IMG/VR virus record: IMGVR_UViG_3300007351_000593
Location: 1-36,588 of that record
From: a virus
Reading direction: 5' to 3' (one strand)
DNA: 36,588 bases
A program made the position numbers and the translations under genes. The notes under the pieces are model-generated. The model did no database searches and was not told where the DNA came from. It saw only the letters and a program-made list of their open reading frames with translations. Positions within the stretch are counted from its first letter, which is position 1, and each line of letters opens with the position of its first letter. Positions 10,051-36,588 of this stretch are shown here, one piece after another.

Positions 10051-11232
10051 TCACACGCTCCGCACAACGTCGGCTGTGACAACCTTCGACCCGATCTCGG
10101 CCGCGAGGTTCATCGCCGCAGTCATCATGTTGCCCACCGCCAGCGGGTAGAGCAGCGATTGCGTCTCACGCCGATCGCGCCGCGTCATGATCAGCTTGGC
10201 CTTGATCGCCTCAATCCCGGCGGCGTCAATGATGTCGCCCAGCGGCTTGTCGCGCCGTTTGAACTTGAACTGCAAATACTCCTCAAGCCGACCAGACTCG
10301 ATCGGCGCCAGTTCCACCATCTCGCAACGCTGCACCACCTCGCGCACCTCCGGGCTACTCTCCGAAAGCTTGATGCGCAACTCCGGCTGACCCAGCAAGA
10401 TGATCGACAGCAACTTCTTGAAGCCATGCTCCAGCTCGAAGAAACGCTTCAAATGCTTGATCGTCGGCAGCGGCAACGAATGCGCCTCATCGATCACCAG
10501 GCAATGACGAAAGCCCGCCGTGCCGCTGGCCGTCAGGCACCGGTGCAACTGCGCAAAGCGCGCCTCCGGGCTCGACTTCGGTTTTTCCAGGGGAGAGACA
10601 GCCGCCATGATGGCTTCCGCAATATGCGTCGCTTTGAGCGTTTTGCCCTTCGCGTCGTTATCCTCCATCGCCAGCACATAAGGGCGGATCAGGCGGATCG
10701 GCTGGTTTTCTCGGGCAATGCGGTCTTCCAGATCACGCATCAGCGTGGTTTTACCTGCGCCGCTTTCCGCCACTACGGCCAGCATGCCGCCATGCCGTGC
10801 GATCTGAAAAATCGACTCGCGCACATAACGGATCTCCGGGTTCACATACATATCCTCATGCGACTGGATGTCGTCAGAGAACGGATCAAAAAATAGTTGA
10901 AAATGCTTTCTCGTTGCAGGCAGCAACGACTGTTTGCGCAGCAGCATAAGCTCCTCCTTGGTTGGCTCGCCCTTCTCGGGCGTTTGGGTGGGTTGAGTGG
11001 TTTGGTTCGGTTGGGAAAAAACATCCTTCAGTTCATCCTGCGGCACGCCATTTTTCAGCAGGAATGCAGCAGTTTTTTTCTTGAGCGAATCCACATCGCG
11101 GCTACTCGGCCACGCGCCGTGATTCACGATTTGCGCCACGGCGCCCTCCGATAGCTCAAGATGCTTGGCGATCACCGTTTGCTTGATCCGGTGACGCTGC
11201 AATACAGCTTTTAATTCCGTCTTCTGCTTCAT
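10051..11232 (-). CDS. Transposition ATPase, MuB/TnpB-like (AAA)
   Basis: 393 residues. The N-terminus is an HTH (residues ~1-45, KQTVIAKHLELSEGAVAQIV). The AAA ATPase has Walker A AESGAGKT at 155-162 and Walker B CLVIDEAH at 244-251 (Asp248, Glu249), then an ExeA/MuB-like arginine-rich C-terminal part (TRRDRRETQSLLYPLAVGN). It would polymerise on target DNA, choose target sites and activate the transposase. It starts 13 bases after the transposase A stop. A Gln/Pro/Thr linker separates HTH and ATPase. Confidence 0.93.
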   Translation of the reverse strand: MKQKTELKAVLQRHRIKQTVIAKHLELSEGAVAQIVNHGAWPSSRDVDSLKKKTAAFLLKNGVPQDELKDVFSQPNQTTQPTQTPEKGEPTKEELMLLRKQSLLPATRKHFQLFFDPFSDDIQSHEDMYVNPEIRYVRESIFQIARHGGMLAVVAESGAGKTTLMRDLEDRIARENQPIRLIRPYVLAMEDNDAKGKTLKATHIAEAIMAAVSPLEKPKSSPEARFAQLHRCLTASGTAGFRHCLVIDEAHSLPLPTIKHLKRFFELEHGFKKLLSIILLGQPELRIKLSESSPEVREVVQRCEMVELAPIESGRLEEYLQFKFKRRDKPLGDIIDAAGIEAIKAKLIMTRRDRRETQSLLYPLAVGNMMTAAMNLAAEIGSKVVTADVVRSV

Positions 11233-11245
11233 GTGACTCCTTTCT

Positions 11246-13033
11246 TTATTCAGCGTTCACAACACGCAAAACAGCTTTCCGGCCAGCCTGCTGCCCGGTA
11301 AGCTCCTCGACAATCTGATCAACCTGGTCTGGCGGAACGCCCTCGGCAAACCGCTGCTGCAACCACGCAAAAGTCTGCGCAGACCATTCCTGCCCGGCAG
11401 ATTCGATGCGCGGCTTGATGAGGCGCGCCGCTTCCACATGCGAGAGCGGCGGCAACTCCACGCGTTGCGATACAAGATCGTGCGCCGTGCCACGACGCGG
11501 CAAAAATTCCGGCAGTTGCGTGTCATCGATATGCTTCCACGGGTCAAGCTTTCCACCGAACGGCAGCGCCCTGGCCTTGCGCACCGCCGCCGCTTCATCC
11601 AGCGAGTGCGTACCCGTCACCAGCATCTCGATCTCTTTCGCAGCCGTTTGCGCAGGCGTATCGGCATGGCGGCTGTACCGTTCGCCGATAGTGGCCGCAT
11701 CAACGGCATACCCGTATTTATCCCGCGCCACCTCCGCCACAAGGTGATAAACCTCACGGCCGTCATCGCCAACCAGCACGATTTGCGCCGCATCATCGCG
11801 CCACGGATTGCGCGTCACCATCAGCTTTTCACCGACGATGACATTCGGCACCGTTGAAACGTCATACTCGCGCCCGCCAAACGGCACGCGCAGTTTTGGC
11901 GTCACCACACGAGAAACCGGGGAAGCCACCGCCAGCGCGCGGCACACCTCCACAGACGGCGCCTTGATCAACTGATCTGCTGTGATCGTCATCCACAACG
12001 CGCTGCGTGTTTTGCCATGACGGCTATGACGGGCGGTGAAGTTGTGATGCATGCGCCACTTGCGCGCTGCCTCATTGAGCGCGTCCAGATCTTCCACCGG
12101 CTGAAACTTCAAGCCCGGCTCAAAACTGCGCTCGATGATGTCGCGCGCCTTCTCAACCGAGCCCGTCGCACGCGCATTGCCCGGCGCATGAACAATCATT
12201 TCAATACCCAGAGAACGGCAAAGATTCTTCGTCATCGCCGCCGTATTGGCCGAACCTGCATCCAGCATCAAGATCTTGGGCACGCCATGCATCACATCCG
12301 CGCCACCGCGCTCCTGCATGGCATCAATCAGCACAGAGCACAGGTTCTCGCCGCTTTCCGCACCCATCACGTACTGCACATAAATCCAGCCCGATGTGTG
12401 ATCGGTGATCTCGTAAGACCACACGCGGTCTGCCGCAATGCGCGCAAGGTTCTTCGGCTTGTTCTTGTTGAACTGATCCACCGGCATCACCTGCAAGCCG
12501 CTGCCGCCTTTGCTGCCGTTGCGCAGGTAATACAGCACGCACAAGCTCGCGTCGATCTGCCACACGTGGTTCGGGTGCCTGCTGGCCAGTTCCGTCACCG
12601 GCGCGGGCGCCGTCAACTGATCCGGATGCAAGCGATACGTGCGCAAGGCGCGATGAATGGTGGATTCCGAAAGCGGCCGAATTTCCCCCGTAGCCGGGTT
12701 AACCGATTCCGCACGCACCATGCTGTTGTAACGCAGGATTTGAGTAGCATCACCCACCGCCAGCAAACGCTTGCCGTTTTTACGGGTAGATTCCACAAGC
12801 GCGGCAGAGATTTGCGCGGCCTCATCACGGCCCAAAGACGTGCGCCCCGCATCGCAGCGGCGCTTGCGCGCAGCAGTGACAGACACTTCTTTCAGCTTGC
12901 GCATCAGCGTCTGGCGCGACATACCCAGCTCCACGCAAGCGGCGTCATAAATCTCGCCCTTCTTGCCGTGCCCGGCACACCGCGCTGCCTGCGCAATTGC
13001 CACCAGTCGCTCTGTCTTGGCCGCGCCCATCAT
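11246..13033 (-). CDS. DDE transposase A (BcepMu TnpA-like, integrase core)
   Basis: 595 residues from the ATG at 13033, which overlaps the preceding stop as TGATG; a second ATG follows immediately. An N-terminal HTH (Q-T-L-M-R-K-L-K) is followed by an rve-type RNase H fold. The catalytic residues are Asp161 (WQIDAS), Asp258 (MLDAGSAN) and Glu294 (TGSVEKARD), counted from this start, giving DDX35E. After that comes a Mu-transposase C-terminal beta barrel (VPFGGREYDVS) and a helical tail. It catalyses replicative transposition and integration, so the tyrosine recombinase at the right end is not needed for lysogeny. Confidence 0.95.
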   Translation of the reverse strand: MMGAAKTERLVAIAQAARCAGHGKKGEIYDAACVELGMSRQTLMRKLKEVSVTAARKRRCDAGRTSLGRDEAAQISAALVESTRKNGKRLLAVGDATQILRYNSMVRAESVNPATGEIRPLSESTIHRALRTYRLHPDQLTAPAPVTELASRHPNHVWQIDASLCVLYYLRNGSKGGSGLQVMPVDQFNKNKPKNLARIAADRVWSYEITDHTSGWIYVQYVMGAESGENLCSVLIDAMQERGGADVMHGVPKILMLDAGSANTAAMTKNLCRSLGIEMIVHAPGNARATGSVEKARDIIERSFEPGLKFQPVEDLDALNEAARKWRMHHNFTARHSRHGKTRSALWMTITADQLIKAPSVEVCRALAVASPVSRVVTPKLRVPFGGREYDVSTVPNVIVGEKLMVTRNPWRDDAAQIVLVGDDGREVYHLVAEVARDKYGYAVDAATIGERYSRHADTPAQTAAKEIEMLVTGTHSLDEAAAVRKARALPFGGKLDPWKHIDDTQLPEFLPRRGTAHDLVSQRVELPPLSHVEAARLIKPRIESAGQEWSAQTFAWLQQRFAEGVPPDQVDQIVEELTGQQAGRKAVLRVVNAE

Positions 13034-13935
13034 CAGGCCTTTTTCTCGATATCTTCCGTGATCCACGCTGGCACGGCATCGATCGTCGGCACCTGCAAGC
13101 CAAACTCATTCACCAGCTGCACGCAGGCATGGTCAATCAGCGCCACAATGCAGCCCATGAATTCGCGGTGGTCAATGCCCGTGTTTTCTGTGTGCGCCTG
13201 CAAGGTCAAAAAAGCCTGGTAAAGCGCGCCACGTATGCCCAGCTCGGCGGAATAGCCAAGCTGGATCGTCTCCTTGCGGATTTGCTCGCCCTCGGCATCC
13301 GGCGGCAACTTGGCAATGCGGCGCTGGGCTGCGGCCAGCTCATCGATTTTTTTGTTTTTGTCGGCCAGAATGCGAGAAGTGGCTTCGGCGTTGCCTTTTG
13401 CGTCGCGCAGAGCTGCTTTCAGCTCGCTGACACTCATGGTCTCGATTTTGTCCAGGGTTAGGCCGCGCACCGAATCACCGCTTTCCAGCGCCTCGATCTC
13501 CCCATCATCAAGTATTACTAGCTCCAACAGCTTGGTTTGGGTGCCAGCGGCGGTCAAAACGGACTTCGAAGTCCGATTTGAAAATTTCAGGGTGGCAGAC
13601 ATAAACTTGCGAGCCATCCGATCATTGATCCCAAGGAGGTCAAGGCGCTGTCTGAATTCGCCATGCTGCGTTAGCTCCTTGAGAATAAGCAGGCGCTTTC
13701 CTAACTCCAGGCACGCTTCCACGGTGCGGCGCTGGTAAAAGCGGATTTCATCCTCCAGCGCGCCGACGGTGAGCGCACCTTCATACCCCAGATGGCTGGC
13801 CAGCGCGTTAGCGTTCTCTGCGGCCTGGCTGTTGGCCAGAGCCAGCGCGTTGGCCGCCTGCGTGGCGGTTGCAAATTGTTCCTCGTTGACGGGGACATCA
13901 ATGATTTCGGGGGCTTTTTTGGCGTGGCGGGCCAT
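13033..13935 (-). CDS. DUF3102-like early protein
   Basis: 300 residues. The segment A-C-L-E-L-G-K-R-L-L-I-L-K-E-L...G-E-F-R-Q-R-L...R-M-A-R-K-F-M matches the DUF3102 pattern (a KfrA/ParB-like helical DNA-associated fold). A coiled-coil stretch (roughly 180-215) and a globular C-terminal third follow. It sits directly upstream of the transposase, as in BcepMu-like phages. A role in regulating or assisting transposition is inferred from position only. Confidence 0.75.
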   Translation of the reverse strand: MARHAKKAPEIIDVPVNEEQFATATQAANALALANSQAAENANALASHLGYEGALTVGALEDEIRFYQRRTVEACLELGKRLLILKELTQHGEFRQRLDLLGINDRMARKFMSATLKFSNRTSKSVLTAAGTQTKLLELVILDDGEIEALESGDSVRGLTLDKIETMSVSELKAALRDAKGNAEATSRILADKNKKIDELAAAQRRIAKLPPDAEGEQIRKETIQLGYSAELGIRGALYQAFLTLQAHTENTGIDHREFMGCIVALIDHACVQLVNEFGLQVPTIDAVPAWITEDIEKKA

Positions 13936-19112: not shown

Positions 19113-19167
19113 CGCCTGAAAAAAATGGACAACGCATTTCCAAACCAGCCGTTTTCAGGCGTTTTTT
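19113..19167 (+). terminator. Rho-independent terminator closing the moron operon
   Basis: Arms CGCCTGAAAA (19113-19122) and TTTTCAGGCG (19152-19161), 10 bp perfect with a ~29-base loop, followed by TTTTTT. Confidence 0.8.
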
Positions 19168-20528: not shown

Positions 20529-20552
20529 CCCTCACTACATAAGGAGTAAGAA

Positions 20553-20957: not shown

Positions 20958-20984
20958 CAATTTCACGCAAAGGAGAACAACATC

Positions 20985-21896: not shown

Positions 21897-21912
21897 GCGT
21901 AAGGAACACGAC

Positions 21913-23664: not shown

Positions 23665-23666
23665 TC

Positions 23667-25148: not shown

Positions 25149-25160
25149 GGAGATCAGATC

Positions 25161-25511: not shown

Positions 25512-25849
25512 TGAGCAAGGCTTACACGATCGCAAACGGCGTGGCAAAAGGTCGCCTCAAGCATGGTATGAAAATCGGCGAAGTCGTGCATAAGGAATTT
25601 GAGATGCGCGAGATGACCGTGGAAGACATGCTCGATGCGGAGGCGGCGACATCAACGTCGAACCCATTGAACTATGCCACCGAGCTGATCACGCGCCAGC
25701 TGGTGCGTGTGGGCGATTTCACCGGCCCTTTCACGATGGGCATGATGAAGAAAAACCTTAAGCCGACGGACTGGCGTCTGTTGCGTGAGGCGCAGATGGA
25801 GCTCGACGCATTGGGGGAAGCCGATTCGATCGGCAGCGACGCCGTATAA
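25511..25849 (+). CDS. Tail assembly chaperone, short form (Mu gp41-like)
   Basis: 112 residues from the second ATG of ATGATG (25508 is the alternative), AGGAGG upstream. Helical, with M-R-E-M-T-V-E-D-M-L-D-A-E and L-I-T-R-Q-L-V-R-V-G-D-F-T-G, as in gp41-type chaperones. A short-lived tape-measure chaperone that is extended by ribosomal frameshift (next feature). Confidence 0.88.
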   Translation: MSKAYTIANGVAKGRLKHGMKIGEVVHKEFEMREMTVEDMLDAEAATSTSNPLNYATELITRQLVRVGDFTGPFTMGMMKKNLKPTDWRLLREAQMELDALGEADSIGSDAV

Positions 25850-25965
25850 ACGGTGTCTTGCTGATCGCGCTGAAAACCGGCTGGAGCCGCGCGGAAATCC
25901 TTGCATTGCATCCGGCCGAGTTTAACCATTACCTCAATCTACTGATAACCAAAAAGGCGACCTGA
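25511..25965 (+). CDS. Tail assembly chaperone, frameshift extension form (Mu gp41/42-like)
   Basis: The region after the gp41 stop is open in the -1 frame through 25965 and encodes a protein-like extension V-L-L-I-A-L-K-T-G-W-S-R-A-E-I-L-A-L-H, ending in TGATG with the tape measure start. A slippery run T-T-G-G-G-G-G-A-A-G at 25811-25820 (frame TTG GGG GAA) allows a -1 slip from GGG to GGG; the extended protein would then continue G-S-R-F-D-R-Q-R-R-R. Tail chaperone frameshifts of this kind are conserved in tailed phages including Mu. The exact slip site is inferred. Confidence 0.7.
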
Positions 25966-27767
25966 TGGCGACGAAAGACATGGCTCTGTCGCTTCGCATG
26001 TACGCGGATGCGTCGCGATTCGTCCAGGGATTAACTAGCAGCCAGGGCGCGTTGCGCAAATTTGGCGGCGCGGTTAAAAGCGAGGCGGCCGCTCTCAAGA
26101 ATGCTTTTGGCGGCGTCCATGGCCAGATCGCCGCGCTCGGCCTGTCGTTCGGCGCAGTGGCCACACTTGCGCAGTCTGCAAGGATGGACAAGTCGCTTAC
26201 GCAAATTGGCCACACGGCCGGGGCGTCTGCCGTGGAAGTGGCGGGTCTGCGCAAAGGGCTGTTTGACATGGGGCAGCTCACGGGTCAGTCCATCGATGAT
26301 TTGCAATCCGGTTTTGCAGCAGCGGTGGCCGCTGGCTTATCGTTCAAGGAAGCCATGCCCGTCATGGGCGCGGTGAACAAGGCGGTGGCTGTTACCGGCG
26401 CATCTGCCACGGCATTGTCCGGCGCATTGACGGTCGCAGCGGCTGCGTTTGATGGCATCGACCTTTCCCAGGTAGGCAAGGCGCAGGAGCTGCTCGATAA
26501 GATGTATGTTGCCGGTAAAGCCGGTAATGCCGAGCTGGATCAATTGGCGCAAATTTTTTCGCGTGTGGGCGTGAATGCGGCGAGCGCCGGCCTTTCTTTT
26601 GCTGGTACTTTGGGTTTTATTGAGTCATTGTCAAAAATCGAGCGCGCGCCGGAACGACTGGCGACATTGGCCGATTCTACGCTGCGGATTTTTAATAATC
26701 TGAACTACATGAAGACGGCGGCAAAAGCTACCGGCATCAAGTTTTTTGATGACAAAGGCATGCGCCGCAGCATGACCGACGTTTTTGGCGATTTTGAAAA
26801 ACAATTCAGCAAACTCAAAACGGACAAAGAGCAGGCGCTGTGGATTCAGTCCGCCTTCGGTATTGCCGATCTTGATACACAGCGTGGCATGAAGGCGATG
26901 CTCAAAGAGGGACGCACAGAGGAGTTGCGCGGCCTGATTGCGCGGATTGAAAACGCGGGTGGCGAAGTTGGCAAGGAATTGCCGGCGGCGATCAATAACG
27001 CAGTCGATCAAACCGGGCGTTTGAAAAATGCACTGCGCGCGGCCGCTGATGATTTTGCAAAACCGGTTAACGAAGTGATCAGCAAGATGATCAAGTATGC
27101 CATGGGCTCGCGCGATAAGGACGGCAAGAAGTCCGGCTTGGGTTTGACAGGCGGCGAATTGCTCGCAGGCGGTGCGGCAATCGGGCTGGCCGGTCTTTTG
27201 GGTTTGCGCATGGGTAAAAATCTCATCAGCCGTTATCGAGGCACGGCCGGTGGTATTGCCGAGGGCAAGGCAATTGAAGCGGCAACTGGCGTGACGCCGG
27301 TGTTCGTGACCAACTGGCCGGCTGGCGGAGTTGGCGCTGCGGCCGGTGGCGCGGCCGCAAACGCGGCTGGCGCGATTTTGGATCGCTTTGGTAATCCGAT
27401 TAGAACGACGGTTGCAGGCGGCGCACGTGCCGCCGGCGGGTTGTCCGGACTTGCCGGGCTGGGCTCGGCGCTTGGGCCTGCTCTGCCTTTGATGGCGATC
27501 ACGGGGCTGGTGATGGCGCTAACTCATCAAATTGAGAGTTACAGCAAAGGCTCTGATCTCGACCGCGAAATGATCGACGCCGGTCACAATGAGGGCTATG
27601 ACGCCGCTGCGGTGCTTTCCGCAATACAGTCGTCGCCGGAACGCCAGCCACAGGGTTTGCAAATGCGGCAAACCATTGAAGTCAAGGATGGCAAGGTCGA
27701 GCGCGTGACGACGCAAACCGATTCCGGCTTGGATGTTTATGCTGGCGCAATGGGGGCTTTTGGATGA
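25965..27767 (+). CDS. Tail tape measure protein
   Basis: 600 residues, in the usual place after the chaperones. The N-terminal third is helical with TP901-type features (F-G-G-A-V-K-S-E-A-A-A-L-K-N-A-F-G-G; H-T-A-G-A-S-A-V-E-V-A-G-L-R-K-G). The middle has Gly/Ala-rich hydrophobic stretches (LLAGGAAIGLAGLLGLRMG; roughly residues 395-420 and 445-520) that may cross the host membrane during injection. Length sets tail length. TGATG coupling to the upstream gene and ATGA to the next. Confidence 0.93.
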   Translation: MATKDMALSLRMYADASRFVQGLTSSQGALRKFGGAVKSEAAALKNAFGGVHGQIAALGLSFGAVATLAQSARMDKSLTQIGHTAGASAVEVAGLRKGLFDMGQLTGQSIDDLQSGFAAAVAAGLSFKEAMPVMGAVNKAVAVTGASATALSGALTVAAAAFDGIDLSQVGKAQELLDKMYVAGKAGNAELDQLAQIFSRVGVNAASAGLSFAGTLGFIESLSKIERAPERLATLADSTLRIFNNLNYMKTAAKATGIKFFDDKGMRRSMTDVFGDFEKQFSKLKTDKEQALWIQSAFGIADLDTQRGMKAMLKEGRTEELRGLIARIENAGGEVGKELPAAINNAVDQTGRLKNALRAAADDFAKPVNEVISKMIKYAMGSRDKDGKKSGLGLTGGELLAGGAAIGLAGLLGLRMGKNLISRYRGTAGGIAEGKAIEAATGVTPVFVTNWPAGGVGAAAGGAAANAAGAILDRFGNPIRTTVAGGARAAGGLSGLAGLGSALGPALPLMAITGLVMALTHQIESYSKGSDLDREMIDAGHNEGYDAAAVLSAIQSSPERQPQGLQMRQTIEVKDGKVERVTTQTDSGLDVYAGAMGAFG

Positions 27768-28978
27768 GTTGGCGCGATCGATATCAGCAGGCGTCTTTCC
27801 GTGGCGTGCCGTTCAAGGTGCGCACACACGATACCCAGATCGGGCGACGTGCAACGGTTATTGAATATCCGCAGCGCGATTTGCCATACACCGAAGACAT
27901 GGGAAGGCGCGCGCGTCGCTATACGGTGCGCGCGATTGTTGTCGGCGATGATTACGACAACGAGCGGAACCGGCTTGTAGCTGCTTTCGAGGAGTATGGT
28001 CCAGGTGTGCTGGTACACCCAGCGTACGGGCGCGTGAGCGTCGCATTGGACGGGCCGGTGACGATTTCGGAATCCCCATCGCAAGAGGGCGGTAAAGCGG
28101 AGATCAGCGCCACCTTCGTCGAGTCCGGCGAGAATGCCCAGCCGGCACAGTCGGTTGATACGCAATCTTTGGTCGAGAGTGCCGCAGATGGCACGATCAA
28201 CGAAGCGATTAACGATTTTCTGGATGAGTTTTCGATAGATGGGTTGCCGGATGTTTCTCAAACCGGTGCCATCGCCGTGCTTGACGATGCGTTGCAGTCG
28301 ATAGATACCGTCACGCGGCGGATATTCGTCAACCCGACGGGATTGTATTCGATGATCAGCAAGCTTGGTCAACTACAGGGCAACGTCGCCAGGCTGCTCA
28401 GCGCGCCACGCACCATTTCTGAGAGGCTCACGCAAATGGTGTCCGGACTCGCTGCGCTCGGCTTTGCGGGCGGAGACAGCGGCACGGCACGGCAAGTCGT
28501 TGCGGCCATGTCTTTGCTCTCTTCAAGCGGGAGCGCCGCTGCATACATTCCGGCCTTTACTGAAAGCCGCCGTCAGGAGGCTGCAAACCGCGACGCTGTC
28601 ACGGCGCTTGTATCCAGAACGGCGGTGGCAGAATCCGTGCGCGTGCAAACCGCGATCAATTACGACAGCGTAGATGATGCCGAAGCGATGCGCGATTTAC
28701 TTGGCGATCAAATTGACGCGTTGGCTGACGTTGCGCCGGATGCGGTTTATCGCTCGCTGACGCGCCTGCGCGTGGCCATGGTGCAAGACATTACCAGGCG
28801 CGGCGCGGATCTGTCTCGGGTGCGCACGACCACGCTCGGGGCGACCTTGCCTTCGGTTGTTGTGGCGCATGCGTTGCTTGGCGATGCCAGGCGCGCTGAT
28901 GAGATTGTGTCGAGAAACCGTATTCGCCATCCCGGGTTTGTCCCGGGCGGCGTGCCGCTGGAGATTGTGGCGCAATAG
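27764..28978 (+). CDS. Mu gpN-like DNA circularisation/baseplate protein
   Basis: 404 residues. The N-terminal domain (W-R-D-R-Y-Q-Q-A-S-F-R-G-V-P-F-K-V-R-T-H and G-R-R-A-R-R-Y-T-V-R-A-I-V-V-G-D-D-Y) is diagnostic of the DNA-circularisation N-terminal family; a helical C-terminus follows with P-G-F-V-P-G-G at the end. In Mu, gpN enters the cell with the DNA and closes the ends, and is located in the tail. Confidence 0.93.
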   Translation: MSWRDRYQQASFRGVPFKVRTHDTQIGRRATVIEYPQRDLPYTEDMGRRARRYTVRAIVVGDDYDNERNRLVAAFEEYGPGVLVHPAYGRVSVALDGPVTISESPSQEGGKAEISATFVESGENAQPAQSVDTQSLVESAADGTINEAINDFLDEFSIDGLPDVSQTGAIAVLDDALQSIDTVTRRIFVNPTGLYSMISKLGQLQGNVARLLSAPRTISERLTQMVSGLAALGFAGGDSGTARQVVAAMSLLSSSGSAAAYIPAFTESRRQEAANRDAVTALVSRTAVAESVRVQTAINYDSVDDAEAMRDLLGDQIDALADVAPDAVYRSLTRLRVAMVQDITRRGADLSRVRTTTLGATLPSVVVAHALLGDARRADEIVSRNRIRHPGFVPGGVPLEIVAQ

Positions 28979-29032
28979 AGTGCAGCACTTCACCCCGCGC
29001 TAACCTCGCGCGCGCGCGTAAGGTGGCCGCAT

Positions 29033-30106
29033 ATGATGCCCGCACATGACAAGGTTAACCTGATCGTCGCCGGAACCGTCTATAGCGGATGGACGGATGT
29101 CGATATCGAGCGTTCAATCGAACGTTTTGCCGGATCGTTCACGATCGCGCTCACAGAGCGTTGGCCAGGGCAAGCTAGTGCGCGACCGATCAAGCCAGGG
29201 CGGCCATGCCAGGTTAAGATTGGCGACGATCTCGTGATCACTGGCTACACAGACGACTACATGCCGCGCATCGATTCTGAAACGCATAGCGTCTCCATTT
29301 CCGGGCGAGATAAAACCGGCGACCTGGTGGATTGCTCGGCCATTCACAAAAGCGGCCAGTGGAAAAAAATCAAGCTGGAGCGGATCGCAACGGATCTATG
29401 CAAGCCGTTCGGCATTTCCGTCATTACCGCAACCGATACCGGCAAGGCTTTCCCCTCTTTTAATGTGGAAGAAGGCGAGTCTGTCTTCGAATGTCTGGAT
29501 CGTGCGGCGAGGCAACGTGCGGTTTTGTTGACATCCGATGCCGCCGGGAACCTTTTGATCACGCGTGCATCTGGCGCTGTCTCACCCGGCGCACTCATCG
29601 AGGGGCAAAACGTGCTTTCCGCAGAAGGGCAGTTTTCCTGGAAAGACCGGCATTCTCGTTACACAATCAAGTCGCAGGAAAAATCCGGCGAAGATTACCT
29701 CGGCGGTCCGCCCGCAAAAAAATCCGGCGCGTCAGCCGCCGCCGCCGATACGTCGGTTGATCGTTACCGGCCGCTCATTGTGATCTCGGAAGACCACGGC
29801 GCGGGCGTGACCATGGCGCAGCGCGCTTCCTACGAGCAGCGCGTTCGGATGGGCCGTAGTAATCGCGCCGTTGTCACCGTGCAGGGCTGGCGCAGGCCGG
29901 ATGGAAAACTCTGGCAACCCAATACCCTGGTGAGCGTCAAATCCCCATCGCTTGCGCTGGATTCGCAAATGCTTATCGCTGGCTGCAAATACAGTTTGCG
30001 TGACAAATCAACGACGACGCTGACGCTTGTCCGCAAAGAGGCTTTCGATTTGATTCCGCAGGCTTCCGGCAAGAAGAAGCCCGACAACGATATGAGTGTT
30101 GTATGA
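29033..30106 (+). CDS. Mu gpP/gp44-like baseplate hub protein
   Basis: 357 residues. AAGGTGG ribosome-binding site upstream, ATGATG start. Typical gpD/gp27-like hub features: G-T-V-Y-S-G-W-T-D-V-D-I-E-R-S-I-E-R, V-K-I-G-D-D-L-V-I-T-G-Y-T-D-D, S-I-S-G-R-D-K-T-G-D-L-V-D-C-S and the V-E-E-G-E-S-V-F-E-C-L-D-R mid-domain. It forms the trimer under the tube that holds the spike. ATGA overlap with the next gene. Confidence 0.93.
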   Translation: MMPAHDKVNLIVAGTVYSGWTDVDIERSIERFAGSFTIALTERWPGQASARPIKPGRPCQVKIGDDLVITGYTDDYMPRIDSETHSVSISGRDKTGDLVDCSAIHKSGQWKKIKLERIATDLCKPFGISVITATDTGKAFPSFNVEEGESVFECLDRAARQRAVLLTSDAAGNLLITRASGAVSPGALIEGQNVLSAEGQFSWKDRHSRYTIKSQEKSGEDYLGGPPAKKSGASAAAADTSVDRYRPLIVISEDHGAGVTMAQRASYEQRVRMGRSNRAVVTVQGWRRPDGKLWQPNTLVSVKSPSLALDSQMLIAGCKYSLRDKSTTTLTLVRKEAFDLIPQASGKKKPDNDMSVV

Positions 30107-30663
30107 ACACTATGCGCAAACTCATCGCGCCGCTATCACGACGCATTCGCCTGACCGCAGCCAAGGCTTTTGTGGCGCTCATTAACGACGCCACGGCATT
30201 GCAGGGCGTGCAGGTTGAGCTGCTCGAGGGCGAAGTGCGGGATGCGACGCGATATCAAAACTACGGGCTCACCAGCCGCCCGCACGACGGTGCCGAGGGT
30301 GTGTTTTTGTCTCTTAACGGTAGCCGAGATCAAGGTGTAGTGATTGTGGTGGATGACAGACGGTATCGCCTGACCAGCCTTGAACCAGGGGAAGTTGCGC
30401 TGTATGACGATCTGGGGCACAAGGTGCATTTGACGCGTGAGGGCATCGTCATTGAGGGGGCGGGACACCCCGTCATCATCACGGACACGCCAAAACTGCG
30501 GGTGGAGGCGGACATTGAGGCCACAGGCCAGATCAAGGATCGGTGCGATACGGCCGGTCTCAGTATGTCGGCCATGCGAAGCACTTACAACTATCACACG
30601 CACCCGGAAAACGATTCCGGTGGACCGACTGACCCGCCATCCTTGCAAATGGAGGCCGAATGA
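30103..30663 (+). CDS. Baseplate spike protein (Mu gp45/gpV-like)
   Basis: 186 residues. The OB-fold start V-Q-V-E-L-L-E-G-E-V-R-D, Y-G-L-T-S-R-P-H-D-G-A-E-G-V and a C-terminal beta-helix-like repeat with a Y-N-Y-H-T-H-P metal-binding tip motif are those of Mu-type membrane-piercing spikes. The tip His probably bind iron as in phi92 and P2 gpV. Confidence 0.93.
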   Translation: MNTMRKLIAPLSRRIRLTAAKAFVALINDATALQGVQVELLEGEVRDATRYQNYGLTSRPHDGAEGVFLSLNGSRDQGVVIVVDDRRYRLTSLEPGEVALYDDLGHKVHLTREGIVIEGAGHPVIITDTPKLRVEADIEATGQIKDRCDTAGLSMSAMRSTYNYHTHPENDSGGPTDPPSLQMEAE

Positions 30664-31118
30664 CAGACATTCGCACCGTCATCGTTGATATGGCCAAGGG
30701 GGCAAATTATCTGCTTGAGGAGTCGTTGCTCGCGCAGGATGATGGGTTTGATACGGCTATCCTTATTTCACTTTTTACAGACCGACAGGCCGATGCTGCA
30801 GACACGTTGCCGCAAGGCCAAACGGATCGGCGCGGCTGGTGGGCAGACGCCTACGCAACCACAGAGAACGGAAAAAGCGACCCGATCGGCAGCCGCCTCT
30901 GGCTGCTCGATGGCAAGCGCACGCAAGCAAACCTCATCAAGGCGCGGGAGTACGCAGAGGAAGCGTTGGCTTGGATGGTCACGGATGGCATTGCACGGCG
31001 CATTGAGGCGGCCGCGCACTATCTTCGGGACAACATCCTTGCCATCACGTTGACCATTACCAGACAAACCGGCGAGGTTGCCCGCCGCCGATTTGAAATC
31101 ATGTGGAGCGCCGTATGA
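30660..31118 (+). CDS. Mu gp46-like baseplate wedge protein
   Basis: 152 residues, ATGA-coupled to gp45. The pattern F-D-T-A-I-L-I-S-L-F-T-D-R-Q-A-D...R-R-G-W-W-A-D is diagnostic of the GP46 family, with G-S-R-L-W-L-L following. It sits with gp47 and gp48 at the baseplate. Confidence 0.93.
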   Translation: MTDIRTVIVDMAKGANYLLEESLLAQDDGFDTAILISLFTDRQADAADTLPQGQTDRRGWWADAYATTENGKSDPIGSRLWLLDGKRTQANLIKAREYAEEALAWMVTDGIARRIEAAAHYLRDNILAITLTITRQTGEVARRRFEIMWSAV

Positions 31119-32215
31119 GTTACATACAACCGACCTTACCGGACTTGATTGGGCAGGCACAAGCCGACATTGAAAGCCGCCTGCCTGGCGCATCTGCGCG
31201 CACACGCCGATCGAATTTGAATGTTTTTGCCCGGGTGATGGCCGCACTGACAAAAGGGCTTTACGGGTTTATGGCGTGGCTGTACAAGCAATTTTTTCCG
31301 CACACGGCAGATGAAGAGGCGCTGCGCGTTCAGGCCTCCCTGTGGCTGGATAAACCTTACATCGCGGCCACCTATGCCGCCGGCGCCGTTACTGCCTCCG
31401 GTACAGTTGCATCGGTCATCCCAGCCGGGAGCGTCGTGCAAAGCGTTACTGGCGTTACTTACTCAGTCATTGAGGATGCCGAAATTGACGTCGCTGGCGA
31501 AGCCACTGTGCAGGTGATGGCTGATACGCCGGGCATTGCCGGAAACCTTGCGGCTGCCGCTGTGCTCTCTCTGGTGTTACCAATCGTCGGCGTCAATAGC
31601 AGCATGACTGTCGCGGCAGGCGGCATCGTTGGCGGCACCGATGATGAGACGATAGAGGCGCTGCGTGAGAGGCTGATCCGGCGCATGCAGTACACGCCGA
31701 TGGGCGGCGCATGGTATGACTACTTGTCGTGGGCATATGAGCTTCCCGGCGTGACCCGCGCATGGGTTTATCCGAAAGAGCTTAATCCCGGATCGGTAAC
31801 GCTGCGTATCATGCGTGATGCCGATGACGATCCATTTCCGTCCGGGGCGCTGCTGGCAGAAGCGCAAGCCTATATCAGCGATCGATGCAACGTTACCGCC
31901 GAGGCGGTCGTGGTAGCGCCAATCGCTGATGCAATCAATTACACCATTACGCTGGTGCCCAATACGCTTGCCGTTCGCACGGCTGTTGAAAACCAACTCA
32001 AAAACCTGCACTTCACTGAGGCGTCGCCAGGTGGCGTGTTTATCGACCCCGACACACGTCTGCAAAAAGAAGGCGGCACCCTGCTGCTCTCACATATCCG
32101 CGAAGCGATATCGCAAGCTGCCGGCGAATTTGATCACGTCCTGCACGCGCCGACGGAAGACATCAACAGCGCGACGGGACGCATTCCTGTGTTAGGAGAA
32201 ATCACGTGGCTATGA
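31115..32215 (+). CDS. Baseplate J-like protein (Mu gp47)
   Basis: 366 residues from the ATG at 31115 that overlaps the gp46 stop. L-P-D-L-I-G-Q-A-Q-A-D-I-E-S-R at the start, G-I-A-G-N-L-A near 150, T-D-D-E-T-I-E-A-L-R-E-R-L-I-R-R and P-G-V-T-R-A-W-V-Y-P are canonical gpJ features. A wedge protein connecting hub and fibres. Confidence 0.95.
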   Translation: MSYIQPTLPDLIGQAQADIESRLPGASARTRRSNLNVFARVMAALTKGLYGFMAWLYKQFFPHTADEEALRVQASLWLDKPYIAATYAAGAVTASGTVASVIPAGSVVQSVTGVTYSVIEDAEIDVAGEATVQVMADTPGIAGNLAAAAVLSLVLPIVGVNSSMTVAAGGIVGGTDDETIEALRERLIRRMQYTPMGGAWYDYLSWAYELPGVTRAWVYPKELNPGSVTLRIMRDADDDPFPSGALLAEAQAYISDRCNVTAEAVVVAPIADAINYTITLVPNTLAVRTAVENQLKNLHFTEASPGGVFIDPDTRLQKEGGTLLLSHIREAISQAAGEFDHVLHAPTEDINSATGRIPVLGEITWL

Positions 32216-32802
32216 AACCGGAAGATTATTTTGCGCAGGCACAGGCGCTTTTACCGCCAGGCGCCGCATGGCCGCGCCGACAGGATGGCGTTATGGCTGG
32301 ATTGCTTCGTGCGATGGCAGATTTTTTCTTTCGGGCGCACCACGATGCCGAAACCGTTTTAAAAGAAATCGACCCGCGCACCACGACCTTTCTGATCGAT
32401 GAGTTTGAGAGGATGCTCGCATTGCCGGAACAATGCGTCACCATTCTGGAGGTTGAGCAAACGCTTGAACAGCGTCGCGGCGCTGCTTGGTCAAAGCTGA
32501 CCGCGCAAGGTGGTGCATCGATACCATTTTTTGTTGAGGTTGCCCGTCGTTCGGGATATCCCGACACGACGATCGAGACGTATCGACCGCTGACGTGCGA
32601 CGGCGACTGCGATGGGGCGCTATGGAGTGAGGTAGACCGGTGGACTTGGCAACTCAATATAGCAGCAGCAGCAGCAGTTAGACAGGCTGATTGCAATAGT
32701 GCCTGTGATGAGCCGTTGGCGACTTGGGGCGATGAAGGATTTGAGTGTTACATCAATCAAAACAAGCCCGCCGAAACAACTGCAATTTTTGCCTATCAAT
32801 AG
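32206..32802 (+). CDS. Mu gp48-like protein (DUF2313/YmfQ)
   Basis: 198 residues from a GTG with AGGAG 7 bases upstream; ATG 32212 is an alternative. The start K-P-E-D-Y-F-A-Q-A-Q-A-L-L-P-P-G-A-A-W-P and L-D-E-F/E-R-M-L-A-L-P-E-type segment fit DUF2313, a baseplate protein that often precedes the tail fibre. The C-terminal part has paired Cys and Trp. Confidence 0.92.
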   Translation: MAMKPEDYFAQAQALLPPGAAWPRRQDGVMAGLLRAMADFFFRAHHDAETVLKEIDPRTTTFLIDEFERMLALPEQCVTILEVEQTLEQRRGAAWSKLTAQGGASIPFFVEVARRSGYPDTTIETYRPLTCDGDCDGALWSEVDRWTWQLNIAAAAAVRQADCNSACDEPLATWGDEGFECYINQNKPAETTAIFAYQ

Positions 32803-32811
32803 GGGAAGAAA

Positions 32812-33615
32812 ATGAAACGAATTGCCACATCAAATGCTGTAGCGGATTTATTCGGCGAAGGGAAGGATGGATTCCGCGACGGAAATAAAGCAGCAGGTAT
32901 TCAAGCAACGCAATTGTCCGCTTTGTGGTGTAATCATTTGCAGGAAGCAATCATTAGAACGATCGAGGCGGCTGGGTTGCCGTTATCGGATACTGACTTC
33001 GATCAGTTTCCTAATGCCTTGATGGCGCTCATTACGGCAAATTCTGCCAACTCGTATTCCATCAATAACTTACCAACGACTGACATCGGTCCCGTCCTCG
33101 TTATTGAGTGCGCTGAGGTCTGGCTCTGGTCGACGTCCGCGTATTTCACCGGCTACCGCTCGCCGCTGTGCGGGCGACCGCTCGATGGCCACACGGTCAC
33201 GCCACTGGTCAGTGAGATCGACGCTGTCGGCGGCACACTGAGCAAGGCGGCCTATCCGCAACTGTGGGGTTATGCACAGGAAAACGCGCTTGTGGTAGCA
33301 GTTGGAGACTGGATCGCCGGGACGCATCATTTCGTCGATCTTGGAGGAGATGATTTCAGAGTCCCGGATCTGCGGAATCAGTTTCGGCGCTATACCGGGA
33401 CTGACCTCGACACTGCGAATGCCACTCTGTTGGGTGGATATAAGGCAGACACGATTAAAGCGCACACACACGCTACTGGGATTATTCAACGAAGTGGTGG
33501 GGCGACTGAGGACGTGCGCCGAATTGGTGATGATGCGGCGACCCAAACGGGTAGCTTCGGTACGGCAGAGACCGCGCCGAAACATACCTACTTTCTGCCG
33601 CGCATCCATGTTTAA
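32812..33615 (+). CDS. Tail fibre (collar-type), currently fused to shufflon cassette 1
   Basis: 267 residues. Residues 1-200 are constant: an N-terminal baseplate-attachment helix region and a tail-collar type domain (C-G-R-P-L-D-G-H; F-R-V-P-D-L-R-N-Q-F-R-R-Y-T-G-T-D). Residue 201 onwards (T-A-N-A...) is read through the recombination core at 33411-33422, so the last 67 residues are cassette 1: L-G-G-Y-K, K-A-H-T-H and the end F-L-P-R-I-H-V. The His-x-His motif is typical of collar-fibre tips. It binds the host receptor; the C-terminal tip is exchangeable by inversion (see shufflon). AGGGG before the ATG. Confidence 0.93.
   Translation: MKRIATSNAVADLFGEGKDGFRDGNKAAGIQATQLSALWCNHLQEAIIRTIEAAGLPLSDTDFDQFPNALMALITANSANSYSINNLPTTDIGPVLVIECAEVWLWSTSAYFTGYRSPLCGRPLDGHTVTPLVSEIDAVGGTLSKAAYPQLWGYAQENALVVAVGDWIAGTHHFVDLGGDDFRVPDLRNQFRRYTGTDLDTANATLLGGYKADTIKAHTHATGIIQRSGGATEDVRRIGDDAATQTGSFGTAETAPKHTYFLPRIHV
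33411..33422 (+). repeat. Shufflon site 1 (active, in fibre gene)
   Basis: CACTGCGAATGC, read in frame as (D)TANA at residue 201. Right flank CACTCTGTTGGG. Confidence 0.93.
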
Positions 33616-33626
33616 CATGTCGCCAT

Positions 33627-33638
33627 CACTGCGAATGC
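33627..33638 (+). repeat. Shufflon site 2
   Basis: Core preceded by AT; right flank TCGGGCGCTCGG. Confidence 0.93.
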
Positions 33639-33831
33639 TCGGGCGCTCGGTAGCAAACAAACCGATTCCTTTTCTCAGCATGATCACGGAGTTGGTTGGG
33701 TATCTTCTGCCGCTGGAGCCTCTCCAGGCAGTACCGTGTCCGGAGCAAGTGAAGAACGCAAATCTACGCCTCGCGGCGGAACAGAAACACGCCCTGTCAA
33801 CACAGCTTTCGCGCCGCGCATTCATGTCTAA
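33628..33831 (+). other. Silent fibre C-terminal cassette 2
   Basis: 67 codons plus stop, in the same phase relative to the core as cassette 1: T-A-N-A-R-A-L-G-S, then S-F-S-Q-H-D-H-G and the end E-T-R-P-V-N-T-A-F-A-P-R-I-H-V. No start codon or ribosome-binding site in front. The tip motif E-T-R-P-V-N is common in collar fibres. Confidence 0.9.
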
Positions 33832-33839
33832 GACCATAT

Positions 33840-33851
33840 CACTGCGAATGC
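33840..33851 (+). repeat. Shufflon site 3
   Basis: Core preceded by AT; right flank TCGGACGCTCGG. Confidence 0.93.
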
Positions 33852-34077
33852 TCGGACGCTCGGCAGTGTGCAGACTGCAAAAGCTGGGAGCATCAACGTT
33901 ACTGCTGCGTCTACTAGCGTTAACGCACCGGGGGCGAACTATTTGCTCAACGATCTGGTCATTAATGGCACTTCCTTTGATGCCGCAAATACCACACCGA
34001 TTTCCGCGACGATACAAGTTACTCCAGGCGACAGCCGACCAATCAATGCGGCCTTTCACCCACGTATCCATGTCTAA
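33841..34077 (+). other. Silent fibre C-terminal cassette 3
   Basis: 78 codons plus stop: T-A-N-A-R-T-L-G-S, beta-rich G-S-I-N-V-T-A-A-S-T-S-V-N and the end S-R-P-I-N-A-A-F-H-P-R-I-H-V. No start of its own at the site. No His-x-His pair, unlike cassettes 1, 2, 5 and 6. Confidence 0.9.
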
Positions 34078-34088
34078 GCCGACTGCAT

Positions 34089-34100
34089 CACTGCGAATGC
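34089..34100 (+). repeat. Shufflon site 4
   Basis: Core preceded by AT; right flank TCGGACGCTTGG. Confidence 0.93.
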
Positions 34101-34359
34101 TCGGACGCTTGGCTCTACGCAAGGTGATGCCATTCGGAACATCACTGGCACACTTACGTTGTTTAAAGATAGCGAGGGAATTCTCGGCAAGACCGGCGCG
34201 TTCACCAACTCGATCGCGGCAGGCGCCACGACGGCAGGCCACACAACCGGAAGCATTTCTGGGACGATTACACATGATTTCGATGCAAGCCTTATCGTCC
34301 CGACAGGTGCAGAAAATAGGCCTATTAACAGCGCATATCACCCACGAATTCATGTCTAA
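34090..34359 (+). other. Silent fibre C-terminal cassette 4 (longest)
   Basis: 89 codons plus stop: T-A-N-A-R-T-L-G-S, a G-A-T-T-A-G-H-T-T-G-S-I-S-G-T-I beta region and the end E-N-R-P-I-N-S-A-Y-H-P-R-I-H-V. Ends tail-to-tail with cassette 5 with one base between the stops. Confidence 0.9.
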
Positions 34360-34360
34360 A

Positions 34361-34561
34361 TTAAACATGAATCCGAGGTGCAAAAGCTGTGTTGACAGGC
34401 CGCGTTTCCGAGATGCCGGTTGCTCCAGACGGTTGATCGATAGATCCTGTGAAGCCAGCGCCTTGCACACCAAACAACCCGCCAAGGCCGACACGTGTGA
34501 TGTGCGTATGGCTTTCAAACCCGTCGAGCTGGTATGTGCCGAGATCTCTGGCATTCGCAGT
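34361..34561 (-). other. Silent fibre C-terminal cassette 5 (inverted)
   Basis: 66 codons plus stop on the minus strand: T-A-N-A-R-D-L-G-T-Y, F-E-S-H-T-H and the end E-T-R-P-V-N-T-A-F-A-P-R-I-H-V, the same end as cassette 2. Inversion between sites 1 and 5 would fuse it in frame to the fibre. Confidence 0.9.
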
Positions 34562-34562
34562 G
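34551..34562 (-). repeat. Shufflon site 5 (inverted)
   Basis: GCATTCGCAGTG on the plus strand; on the minus strand preceded by AT with right flank CAGAGATCTCGG. Confidence 0.93.
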
Positions 34563-34573
34563 ATATGGCCGCG

Positions 34574-34777
34574 TTAAACATGGATGCGCGGCAGAAAGTA
34601 GGTATGTTTTGGCGCAGTCTCTGCCGTACCAAAAACTCCGGTGGCGGTGGCGCTACCGGATGGGACGGCATTTCCACCGCCCGCGCACCCGCCGAAAGCG
34701 GAGCCGAAAAATCCGGGGTGGCTGTGGCTCTTGATAGTGTCCGTCTTATATCCGCCCAGCGTAGTGGCATTCGCAGT
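34574..34777 (-). other. Silent fibre C-terminal cassette 6 (inverted)
   Basis: 67 codons plus stop on the minus strand: T-A-N-A-T-T-L-G-G-Y-K, I-K-S-H-S-H-P-G, a Gly-rich middle and the end H-T-Y-F-L-P-R-I-H-V. Start and end match cassette 1 closely while the middle differs. Inversion between sites 1 and 6 would fuse it in frame. Confidence 0.9.
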
Positions 34778-34778
34778 G
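34767..34778 (-). repeat. Shufflon site 6 (inverted, distal)
   Basis: GCATTCGCAGTG on the plus strand; right flank on the minus strand CACTACGCTGGG. It forms the outer boundary of the shufflon. Confidence 0.93.
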
Positions 34779-34812
34779 CGATGATCAACTAAGCAAATTT
34801 AAAGGAGAAAAA

Positions 34813-35190
34813 ATGAGCACTAAAACCGTTTACCAAACCGATCCGGAAGGTGTTTTCCTCTATGAGACAAAAGCGCACGCGCTGCCGCTGTCACCTGGTC
34901 GATTTAATATTCCATTCGGTGCCTACGAGGATGCGCCGCCGATCGCGCCGGACGGCTCCGCCGCCGTGCGCGTGGGCATCAGCTGGGAAGTTTTTGAGGA
35001 TCACCGCTCCGACGTACTTTACGTCGTGGAAACTGGCGCACAATATTCTCGGGGCGCGGATGTTGATGTTGAGGGTGTTGCGGTCAGTTATTCCGGCCTT
35101 GGCCCCATCCCGGCGTGGCTCACACTAACGCCGCCCCCCGCGCCGGAGCCTGAAACTGTTACGGAAACGCCTGAAACACCGGCGGGTTAG
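34813..35190 (+). CDS. Small tail protein after the fibre (fibre assembly-type)
   Basis: 125 residues, strong AAAGGAG upstream, outside the invertible region. The N-terminal Y-Q-T-D-P-E-G-V-F-L-Y-E-T-K-A-H-A-L-P-L-S-P-G-R-F-N-I-P-F-G-A-Y is typical of the small proteins that accompany collar-type fibres in Mu-like phages; the C-terminus is Pro/Glu/Thr-rich. It may be a chaperone that must work with every fibre tip made by the shufflon, or a structural attachment piece; the exact role is not settled. Confidence 0.75.
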   Translation: MSTKTVYQTDPEGVFLYETKAHALPLSPGRFNIPFGAYEDAPPIAPDGSAAVRVGISWEVFEDHRSDVLYVVETGAQYSRGADVDVEGVAVSYSGLGPIPAWLTLTPPPAPEPETVTETPETPAG

Positions 35191-35197: not shown

Positions 35198-35275
35198 ATG
35201 AGTATCGTCGAGATAATAGGGTGGGTCACAATAATTGTGCTGGTAATGCGCGGCCTTTGGACGTTTTTAGAGTGA
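35198..35275 (+). CDS. Possible 25-residue membrane peptide
   Basis: MSIVEIIGWVTIIVLVMRG... is almost entirely one transmembrane helix. It begins 7 bases after the tail protein stop without a clear ribosome-binding site, and its last 9 bases overlap the end of the recombinase gene. Could be a chance frame. Confidence 0.3.
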   Translation: MSIVEIIGWVTIIVLVMRGLWTFLE

Positions 35276-36277
35276 TGTTGAATTTTGGGATCGGACAGTA
35301 TCCCGTAGCGCAGCCAGCTGCCGTTTCCCGAGGGAGCTGCGCCGTAGCTTCTTGGCCAGCACGCTCCCTCGTGGGTGGTAGTAGCGCAGCAGCATCCGCG
35401 TATCGCTATGGCCGGTGATCTTGGCCAGCTCGTGCATGTCGTAGATCTCTGCCAGCACTGACGTTGCCTCATGACGCAAATCATGAAAGCGCAGATCGTG
35501 AAAATAATCCTTTCTCGGCCTACGCCCTTTTTGGCGGCATAGTGCCTCGTATTCGCGCCGAGCGCGTTGCTTGGCTCTGATGAACGCTCGTGTGACCGCG
35601 CTTGGGGAAAGTGTGAATATGCGCCCTCGATGGGGTCTGCTTTCAAGCCATTTTCGTAGTGCCTCTACGGCGAATGGTGATAACGGCACTTCCCTTGATT
35701 TCCCGTTCTTGGTGTCCGGCAGATATGCCGTGCCGAGCCTGAGGTTGATCCATTCTCTCCGTAATCCGGCAATTTCAGCACGACGCATGGCCGTCTCTCT
35801 GGCAAGGATCAGGATCGTCGGCAGCTCCGGTGATAGGGTGGCTTTTATGATCCACGTCAGCTCATCTTCCTGCACACCCATGCCGCGCAGCTTCACCCGC
35901 TCCTGTAGGCGCCGGTCTCTCGCGTCACGCACGGCGGGGCGACGCACAAGCTGCACCGGGTTGACTACGTCGTGGTGCCCCCAGTCCTTACGCAAGACGG
36001 TGTACAGATGGCTCAGCAGCGCCATTCGCCGCACAACCGTTGCTGGGGCATATTTACCCAGCCAATCGTCCCGTATGTCCGCTATATCAGCAGGTCTGAC
36101 TCGGTCGATTTGTCGGTTTCCAAGTCTGGTTGACTGCCATATTCTGGCGATTGAACGCTCAGCTGCTGCGCCTTTTTTGGATGGTGATATTTCTGTAATA
36201 TACCTGTCCAGTGCTTGGGCGATTGTTGGAATGGATTGGCGGCGATGATGAAGGTTGAAGCGTCTGATATTTGACAT
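35267..36277 (-). CDS. rci-like: Shufflon-type tyrosine recombinase (Rci-like)
   Basis: 336 residues from the ATG at 36277; a TTG at 36307 would add ten and is used for the numbering here. The catalytic residues are intact: Arg175 (ETAMR), Lys200 (PDTKNGKSREVPLS), His275-x-x-Arg278 (HDLRHEA), His300 (TGHSD) and Tyr309 (RYYHPR). Several blocks closely match R64 Rci as I know it: the L-L-S-x-L-Y/F stretch with W-G and N-P-V-x-L-V-R-x-P-x-V and R-D-R-R-L, A-x-E-T-A-M-R-x-x-E-I, L-P-x-T-K-N-G-x-S-R-x-V-P-L-S. It lies one gene from the fibre shufflon, as rci does in R64, and would invert the cassettes. It is not needed for integration, because the phage has a DDE transposase. A hairpin with arms GGCGAAA/TTTCGCC abuts the ATG. 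Confidence 0.93.
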   Translation of the reverse strand: MSNIRRFNLHHRRQSIPTIAQALDRYITEISPSKKGAAAERSIARIWQSTRLGNRQIDRVRPADIADIRDDWLGKYAPATVVRRMALLSHLYTVLRKDWGHHDVVNPVQLVRRPAVRDARDRRLQERVKLRGMGVQEDELTWIIKATLSPELPTILILARETAMRRAEIAGLRREWINLRLGTAYLPDTKNGKSREVPLSPFAVEALRKWLESRPHRGRIFTLSPSAVTRAFIRAKQRARREYEALCRQKGRRPRKDYFHDLRFHDLRHEATSVLAEIYDMHELAKITGHSDTRMLLRYYHPRGSVLAKKLRRSSLGKRQLAALRDTVRSQNSTSL

Positions 36278-36299
36278 GGCGAAATCTGTTATTTTCGCC
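36278..36299 (-). promoter_or_regulatory. Hairpin directly before the recombinase ATG
   Basis: Arms GGCGAAA and TTTCGCC with an 8-base loop, ending at the base before the ATG at 36277; no clear ribosome-binding site is present. May limit translation of the recombinase or mark an operator. Confidence 0.4.
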
Positions 36300-36588
36300 A
36301 GTCGCAATTATGTTGCTGCGTGTAAAATGGTTTATGGCTTTTATTTATCGCGCAAAAAAGGCACCATTTATCGCGCCGCGCTTCACCCAGCACGTAAATG
36401 ATCGGCAGACGAACCGTCGCCCCCCCAATCCGGGCAGTCTCATCATCCAGCAAATTGATGTGCGCGTCAGGCAAATCACTCTGCCAGGCACGCAACAACG
36501 CATACAAAGCCAGCCCCGTCATCAGGACAAATACCAAGCCCTTGTAGATTTCCAGCTCGTTGCGCAACGCGGAATAGCCGGCAAACAT
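36289..36588 (-). CDS. Partial or interrupted membrane protein at the window edge (host?)
   Basis: 99 residues with the ATG at the last bases of the window; the true start may lie outside. One transmembrane helix (Y-K-G-L-V-F-V-L-M-T-G-L-A-L-Y-A-L-L, roughly residues 15-33) follows a short N-terminus, then a polar segment I-N-L-L-D-D-E-T-A-R-I-G-G-A-T-V-R-L-P. The last ~25 codons run through the TTTATCGCGC repeats and end inside the leader of the recombinase, and look unlike the rest. It may therefore be a host gene cut by prophage insertion. The family is not recognised. Confidence 0.45.
   Translation of the reverse strand: MFAGYSALRNELEIYKGLVFVLMTGLALYALLRAWQSDLPDAHINLLDDETARIGGATVRLPIIYVLGEARRDKWCLFCAINKSHKPFYTQQHNCDWRK
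36331..36376. repeat. Candidate transposase-binding repeats near the right phage end
   Basis: TTTATGGC (36331-36338), TTTATCGCGC (36344-36353) and TTTATCGCGC (36367-36376); the last two are 23 bp apart. Short spaced repeats of this kind occur at the ends of transposable phages. A CA follows the middle copy (36353-36354 in TTTATCGCGCA), which fits a 5'-TG...CA-3' terminus, but the exact end cannot be fixed without the left end. Confidence 0.4.

Follow-up and report, generated by a model that had tools for sequence, protein, structure and literature searches.

What does the 3′ end of a phage tail-fibre gene do when it is followed by five further open frames behind copies of the same short sequence? 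The window, that is, the whole 36,588-nt stretch of viral DNA that was analysed (IMG/VR record IMGVR_UViG_3300007351_000593, positions 1 to 36,588), contains six exact copies of CACTGCGAATGC, four on the plus strand and two on the minus strand. Our preferred reading, to which we give a probability of about 0.92, is that a Mu-like (transposable) prophage here carries a multi-inversion tail-fibre shufflon, driven by a tyrosine recombinase of the phage. The relevant features, in window coordinates, are:

10051..11232, minus strand: MuB-type DNA transposition protein (phrog_296, E=4.9e-68)
11246..13066, minus strand: MuA-type transposase, which marks the phage as transposable (phrog_310, E=5.7e-128)
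32812..33410, plus strand: tail-fibre gene, constant N-terminal part, about 199 codons (PHROG tail-fibre, best phrog_1858, E=1.3e-27)
33411..33422, plus strand: putative recombination site 1, inside the fibre gene (exact CACTGCGAATGC)
33412..33615, plus strand: cassette 1, expressed fibre tip, 67 aa, with an HTH (His-x-His) motif (open frame)
33627..33638, plus strand: putative recombination site 2 (exact CACTGCGAATGC)
33628..33831, plus strand: cassette 2, silent, 67 aa (open frame)
33840..33851, plus strand: putative recombination site 3 (exact CACTGCGAATGC)
33841..34077, plus strand: cassette 3, silent, 78 aa (open frame)
34089..34100, plus strand: putative recombination site 4 (exact CACTGCGAATGC)
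34090..34359, plus strand: cassette 4, silent, 89 aa (open frame)
34361..34561, minus strand: cassette 5, silent, inverted, 66 aa (open frame)
34551..34562, minus strand: putative recombination site 5 (exact CACTGCGAATGC)
34574..34777, minus strand: cassette 6, silent, inverted, 67 aa (open frame)
34767..34778, minus strand: putative recombination site 6 (exact CACTGCGAATGC)
34813..35190, plus strand: tail-fibre assembly protein (phrog_105, E=8e-12)
35267..36307, minus strand: tyrosine recombinase, candidate inverting enzyme (Pfam Phage_integrase, E=3.4e-22)
36344..36385, no strand: probable prophage right end, with a presumed end point (two TTTATCGCGC repeats, then ...TTCA)

The cassette array and its Mu-like setting

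Chance repeats are ruled out by mismatch counts and by shuffling. All other CACTGCGAATGC-like matches in the window have two mismatches, which corresponds to chance level, and in 1,000 dinucleotide shuffles of positions 33301-34850 no 12-mer exceeded two copies, against the six observed. Two more exact copies of the 12-mer were localized in the 2.3-Mb host genome (C2, C9), in unrelated frames. All 12 core columns are invariant across the six copies, synonymous positions included, while nearly all flanking columns vary, which argues for a constraint on the DNA and not on the peptide alone. The reading phase is identical at the six sites, each of which leads into an open frame beginning with TANA and ending with PRIHV-stop. 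Cassettes 2 to 6, each lying between its own site and stop, are not joined to the fibre start. Protein identity between cassettes is mostly 34-47%, reaching 61% between cassettes 6 and 1, and a 95-nt inverted repeat (85%) spans the surroundings of sites 2 and 5. The array has the organization of a shufflon: at least three short sites that occur in both orientations and each lead in frame into an alternative C-terminus, next to a dedicated recombinase whose catalytic set is intact. Two overlapping long open frames, 33070-34788 on the minus strand (572 aa) and 33302-34792 on the plus strand (496 aa), cover the whole array and could lead automatic annotation to one long gene instead of cassettes.

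Nucleotide homology between the fibre gene of the window and those of two relatives (L028 and L043) ends exactly at position 33422, the end of the core. The fold prediction of the fibre was uninformative (mean pLDDT of 44). A “hypothetical” fibre of the Burkholderia jumbo phage FLC6 (L015, 5914-6669) is 40% identical to residues 71-267 of the window fibre.

We simulated all inversions between oppositely oriented sites on the window array. In total, 240 arrangements are reachable, six of six tips arrive at the fibre in two inversions or fewer, and every simulated fusion is in frame with PRIHV at its end. These results bear out the original prediction, which had placed six sites at positions and on strands that are exact to the base and need no correction, and had described six in-frame cassettes of 66-89 codons that translation confirms, the first of them being the C-terminus of the fibre ORF (32812-33615), and inversions able to present all six tips. 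The span given by that prediction omits the tail-fibre assembly gene and the recombinase gene.

The setting in a Mu-like prophage, also part of the prediction, holds: besides MuA and MuB, the Mu head and tail families Portal_Mu, Phage_Mu_F and Phage_Mu_Gp48 are present in the window, as is Baseplate_J. Genes follow the order gp48, fibre gene (32812-33615), array, fibre-assembly gene and, on the minus strand, tyrosine recombinase. Repeats of TTTATCGCGC at 36344 and 36367, and of GAGATAAAT at the contig start on the left side, suggest both phage ends and would thus place the recombinase and the array at the right end. In Mu, the right end is where the G segment and gin are found. The block carrying MuA, MuB, terminase, portal and F (1-13066) is oriented leftward and the major head, tail and fibre genes (17834-35190) rightward, in contrast with the single direction found in Mu.

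We propose that the recombinase would act on inverted pairs of CACTGCGAATGC by conservative site-specific recombination, with crossover inside the core. An inversion using site 1 would join another cassette, in the correct frame, to the constant fibre region, and inversions between other pairs of sites would reorder the stored cassettes. Because site-1 inversions would swap tips, the phage probably releases particles with varied fibre tips, and one virus genome probably makes several host-recognition variants. We infer from their position and from known systems that the fibre tips determine host range. Directly repeated sites would delete cassettes upon recombination; six cassettes are still present in the window, and the retention of four direct copies is consistent with recombination between inverted sites only.

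The recombinase clade and the spread of the module

The recombinase is 346 aa long from a TTG at 36307 or 336 aa from an ATG at 36277, and its catalytic set is complete (R175, K200, H275, R278, H300 and Y309); the third-motif H is replaced by W in one relative. Its association with the sites points to this protein as the inverting enzyme. We carried out a homologue scan using an alignment of the window recombinase and the L029 relative as the query. Homologues with 57-62% identity were retrieved from Pandoraea captiosa, Pandoraea nosoerga, Paracandidimonas soli, Burkholderia sp. lig30, Paraburkholderia saeva and a Burkholderiaceae MAG, along with two IMG/VR contigs, one of these being the same Paracandidimonas phage. 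The CTGC[A/G]AATG core occurs at all these homologue loci except that of P. nosoerga; the lig30 locus has one site only, in which its contig ends, and the P. captiosa array is split over contigs. These close homologues keep their position downstream of fibre cassettes in Mu-like and P2-like phages.

In a tree of 20 recombinases, the cassette-linked ones form a single clade (support 100/100). Seven of its eight members adjoin cassettes, which are readable at six of these loci, those of lig30 being cut off by contig ends; the eighth, from P. nosoerga, is almost the same as the P. captiosa recombinase. The P. nosoerga region (L039, 7971-9713) has no cassettes, contains a MuA-type transposase and a tail sheath, and is possibly a rearranged or decayed prophage. 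Seven homologues outside the clade (38-51% identity) had no cassettes in the fetched DNA, and no cassettes are linked to two recombinases at 37-38% identity (L022, L023) or to a Paraburkholderia terrae plasmid homologue (L016). Among 50,697 deposited phage records, the best recombinase match was below 40%, with no close member, and the nearest relatives carry an integrase annotation. KS10 has no such site. BgVeeders33 (L017, L086), a Mu-like Burkholderia phage from sewage, carries an unannotated frame for a tyrosine recombinase (29% identical) directly downstream of the fibre genes, and no comparable cassette array. Pseudomonas phages MK511001-MK511014 encode an annotated “shufflon-specific DNA recombinase” and may carry dusA-type-related integrases.

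Scanning IMG/VR with seven clade members yielded 60 recombinase loci, many of them on contig fragments. At least one site and a cassette-like frame were found at 46 of the 60, a few of the single-site matches being short and perhaps spurious, and about 36 loci carry at least two, the maximum being nine. For a minority of clade members, cassettes are lacking in the DNA examined. The core is CTGCAAATG at essentially all IMG/VR loci. The window is the only member with a G in the core (CTGCGAATG versus CTGCAAATG), a base shared by all six copies; this uniformity fits homogenization by crossing over and could also be one ancestral change copied with the array. Results from relatives are therefore transferred to the window across a one-base change. 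Six IMG/VR contigs matched by the exact core pattern of the window have single sites and no cassettes.

Baseplate markers split the loci into Mu gp48, P2 gpI/fibre and DUF2612 types. A full MuA-type transposase is encoded on two Mu-tailed IMG/VR contigs (L132, L133), and the fibre contigs of P. captiosa and lig30 also encode one of MuA type, about 29-31 kb from the fibre, the P. captiosa copy having one internal stop. No transposase match was found on contigs L131, L135 and L119, which may thus be either incomplete or Mu-tailed without being transposable. Of the two such prophages in P. captiosa, one is Mu-tailed and the other P2-tailed. The gene for a D12 adenine-specific DNA methyltransferase is situated between those for fibre assembly and the recombinase in a P2-like relative (L029, 9844-10608) and downstream of the array in L028 (7685-8539). 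In L037, L118 and L135 (reverse-complement coordinates), back-to-back divergent site pairs are about 17 bp apart and cassette orientation alternates, as opposed to the four-plus-two arrangement of the window.

Inversion in relatives and competing explanations

Inverted or rearranged junctions, which had been named beforehand as the test of the prediction, were found in relatives. Contigs L131 and L135 have collinear flanks (98.1% identity over 1,141 bp on the fibre side and 94.2% over 979 bp on the far side), between which a 489-bp cassette segment is 97.5% identical in opposite orientation; a 450-bp segment (92%) is likewise inverted between L130 and L135. Both borders of the inversion fall at the core: on the left, identity continues through CACTGCAAATGCA and then ends, and on the right it starts at the core and runs outward. 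In L108, L132 and L134, the cassettes differ in place. Two contigs from one isolate genome (L026 and L089, IMG 2855751197) contain a 592-bp segment that is 100% identical and in opposite orientations, the same flank being joined at the core to two different cassettes.

Breaks in draft genomes give a similar picture. In P. captiosa, the fibre contig ends at the last base of the core, the cassette contig begins at its first base, and two more contigs break off 77 nt away from where a core starts. In lig30, one and the same 18-nt string, CACTGCAAATGCGCGGGC, terminates the contig with the fibre and the contig with the assembly gene, as expected if two cassettes alternate. Contig ends of this sort would be produced by a de Bruijn assembler when both orientations are present in the reads. 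Given that the fibres of the P. captiosa prophages are only 77% identical, shared sequence does not explain these ends. Inversion at the core sites happens in relatives.

The position of these borders bears on the most serious alternative, a fixed store of tips altered by slow homologous recombination or gene conversion, with a recombinase that is dead or otherwise employed. The cassettes do have conserved ends, such as the inverted repeat around sites 2 and 5, and the window assembly displays one order only. However, the inverted segments of relatives border at the core and are not spread across homologous ends, cassettes so divergent in protein sequence are poor substrates for homologous recombination, and the recombinase retains its catalytic residues in a clade that tracks cassettes, all of which makes this explanation improbable. 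It is highly unlikely that the recombinase is an ordinary prophage integrase, with unrelated repeats and an array driven by a serine invertase encoded elsewhere in the genome. Both PHROG and Pfam class the protein as an integrase, in keeping with the annotation of its nearest deposited phage relatives, but MuA and MuB already serve integration, close homologues remain next to fibre cassettes in phages of two types, the neighbour of the array is a tyrosine recombinase and not a serine invertase, and the proteins scanned, which represent part of all ORFs, include no serine invertase. That the cassettes are just fibre fragments, duplicated or decaying and not subject to programmed rearrangement, is scarcely credible: tail-fibre 3′ ends are often duplicated and the silent cassettes lack starts, but six of six frames are open with like ends, the core is invariant between variable neighbours, and rearranged cassette orders are present in relatives. 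Integron-like cassettes are unlikely since those of the window are in-frame gene ends and not free genes, and so is a diversity-generating retroelement since no template/variable repeat pattern was seen.

The shufflon reading thus holds, from the sites, the cassettes, the simulation and the junctions of relatives. In the window itself, the array is unbroken inside a 59-kb contig, which indicates that one order predominated in the sequenced culture and that activity here could be low or absent; a search for a near-identical phage with another cassette order returned none. The recombinase is presumed to work in this lysogen.

Comparison with known switching systems

Multi-cassette switching of a C-terminus by an arm-less tyrosine recombinase is shared with the Rci shufflons of R64 and other IncI plasmids, in which the target is the PilV pilus adhesin of a conjugative plasmid and not a phage tail fibre. 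Plasmid Rci is about 35% identical over about 90% to the window recombinase and falls outside the phage clade (100/100). The “Rci-driven” of the original prediction stands as regards homology with R64-type Rci; since the recombinase belongs to its own clade and not to the R64-type Rci family, the term should read “Rci-related”. The repeats do not correspond to the 19-bp sfx site of R64 (GTGCCAATCCGGTNNNTGG), to which the phage core CTGC[A/G]AATGC is only partly alike. The plasmid site CTGTCAATCC.. (CTGTCAATCCGGCGTGTGG in full) resembles this core, with about 7 of 10 core bases in common, a partial match that hints at, but does not prove, a shared origin of the sites. In R64, direct-site recombination is reportedly inhibited by site asymmetry (Gyohda 2006). 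The window recombinase offers a natural comparison with Rci on the question of why enzymes of this kind produce inversions and no deletions, and the compact core and its 12-nt identity make it easy to test.

A closer parallel in phages is Rin, reported in 2018 as a tyrosine-recombinase shufflon of Bifidobacterium prophages, with a second case in Eggerthella; its cassettes lie behind an 11-bp asymmetric repeat, and inversion was seen in reads (PMC6109161, PMC8778435). As in the window, the recombinase is phage-borne and beside the array, and a receptor-binding protein has a constant N-terminus and several C-terminal cassettes. The Rin repeat, TTCCCTAACCC, is not the crossover site CTGC[A/G]AATG of the window clade, and Rin belongs to actinobacterial phages with cassettes akin to the TP901-1 RBP, whereas those described here are tail-collar fibre tips of Mu-like and P2-like phages. 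Site, cassettes and phage hosts set the system of the window apart from Rin. The mechanism is therefore not unprecedented, and the prediction that such a system is “poorly described or undescribed” is upheld for the clade and its Mu-like setting, no description of the shufflon of this clade having been found in the open-access journal literature searched. What is new here is a separate Rci-related recombinase clade common to Mu-like and P2-like Burkholderiales phages. We consider it likely that these phage tyrosine DNA invertases form an undescribed and widespread clade, separate from Rci and perhaps also from Rin, which drives tail-fibre shufflons of 2-9 cassettes and whose module travels among Mu-like, P2-like and other contractile-tailed Burkholderiales phages as the tyrosine counterpart of the role of Gin in Mu. 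The presence of the same module in P2-like phages suggests that evolution reached this solution on more than one occasion and that it passes from one phage type to another. With tens of phage contigs carrying the module and none close in the 50,697 deposited records, predicting host range from one assembled fibre sequence would be misleading for these phages.

Multi-state switching of a phage fibre C-terminus is also known from p15B Min and the Gin-type, three-state FRphi system, both of which rely on serine invertases and other sites. In FRphi, locked variants of the serine-invertase system proved the effect on the receptor (PMC13418256). Like the Mu G segment with Gin and like P1 Cin, the module of the window is a predicted invertible fibre module at the prophage right end with an adjoining recombinase. 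The enzyme of the window is a Phage_integrase with an R-K-H-R-H-Y set and not a serine recombinase, there are six cassettes instead of two states, and the assembly gene lies outside the invertible part, unlike the fibre-assembly gene involved in the Mu G segment. The textbook example of fibre switching is Mu, with a serine recombinase and two states; the window presents a Mu-like phage with six predicted states and a recombinase of an unrelated class.
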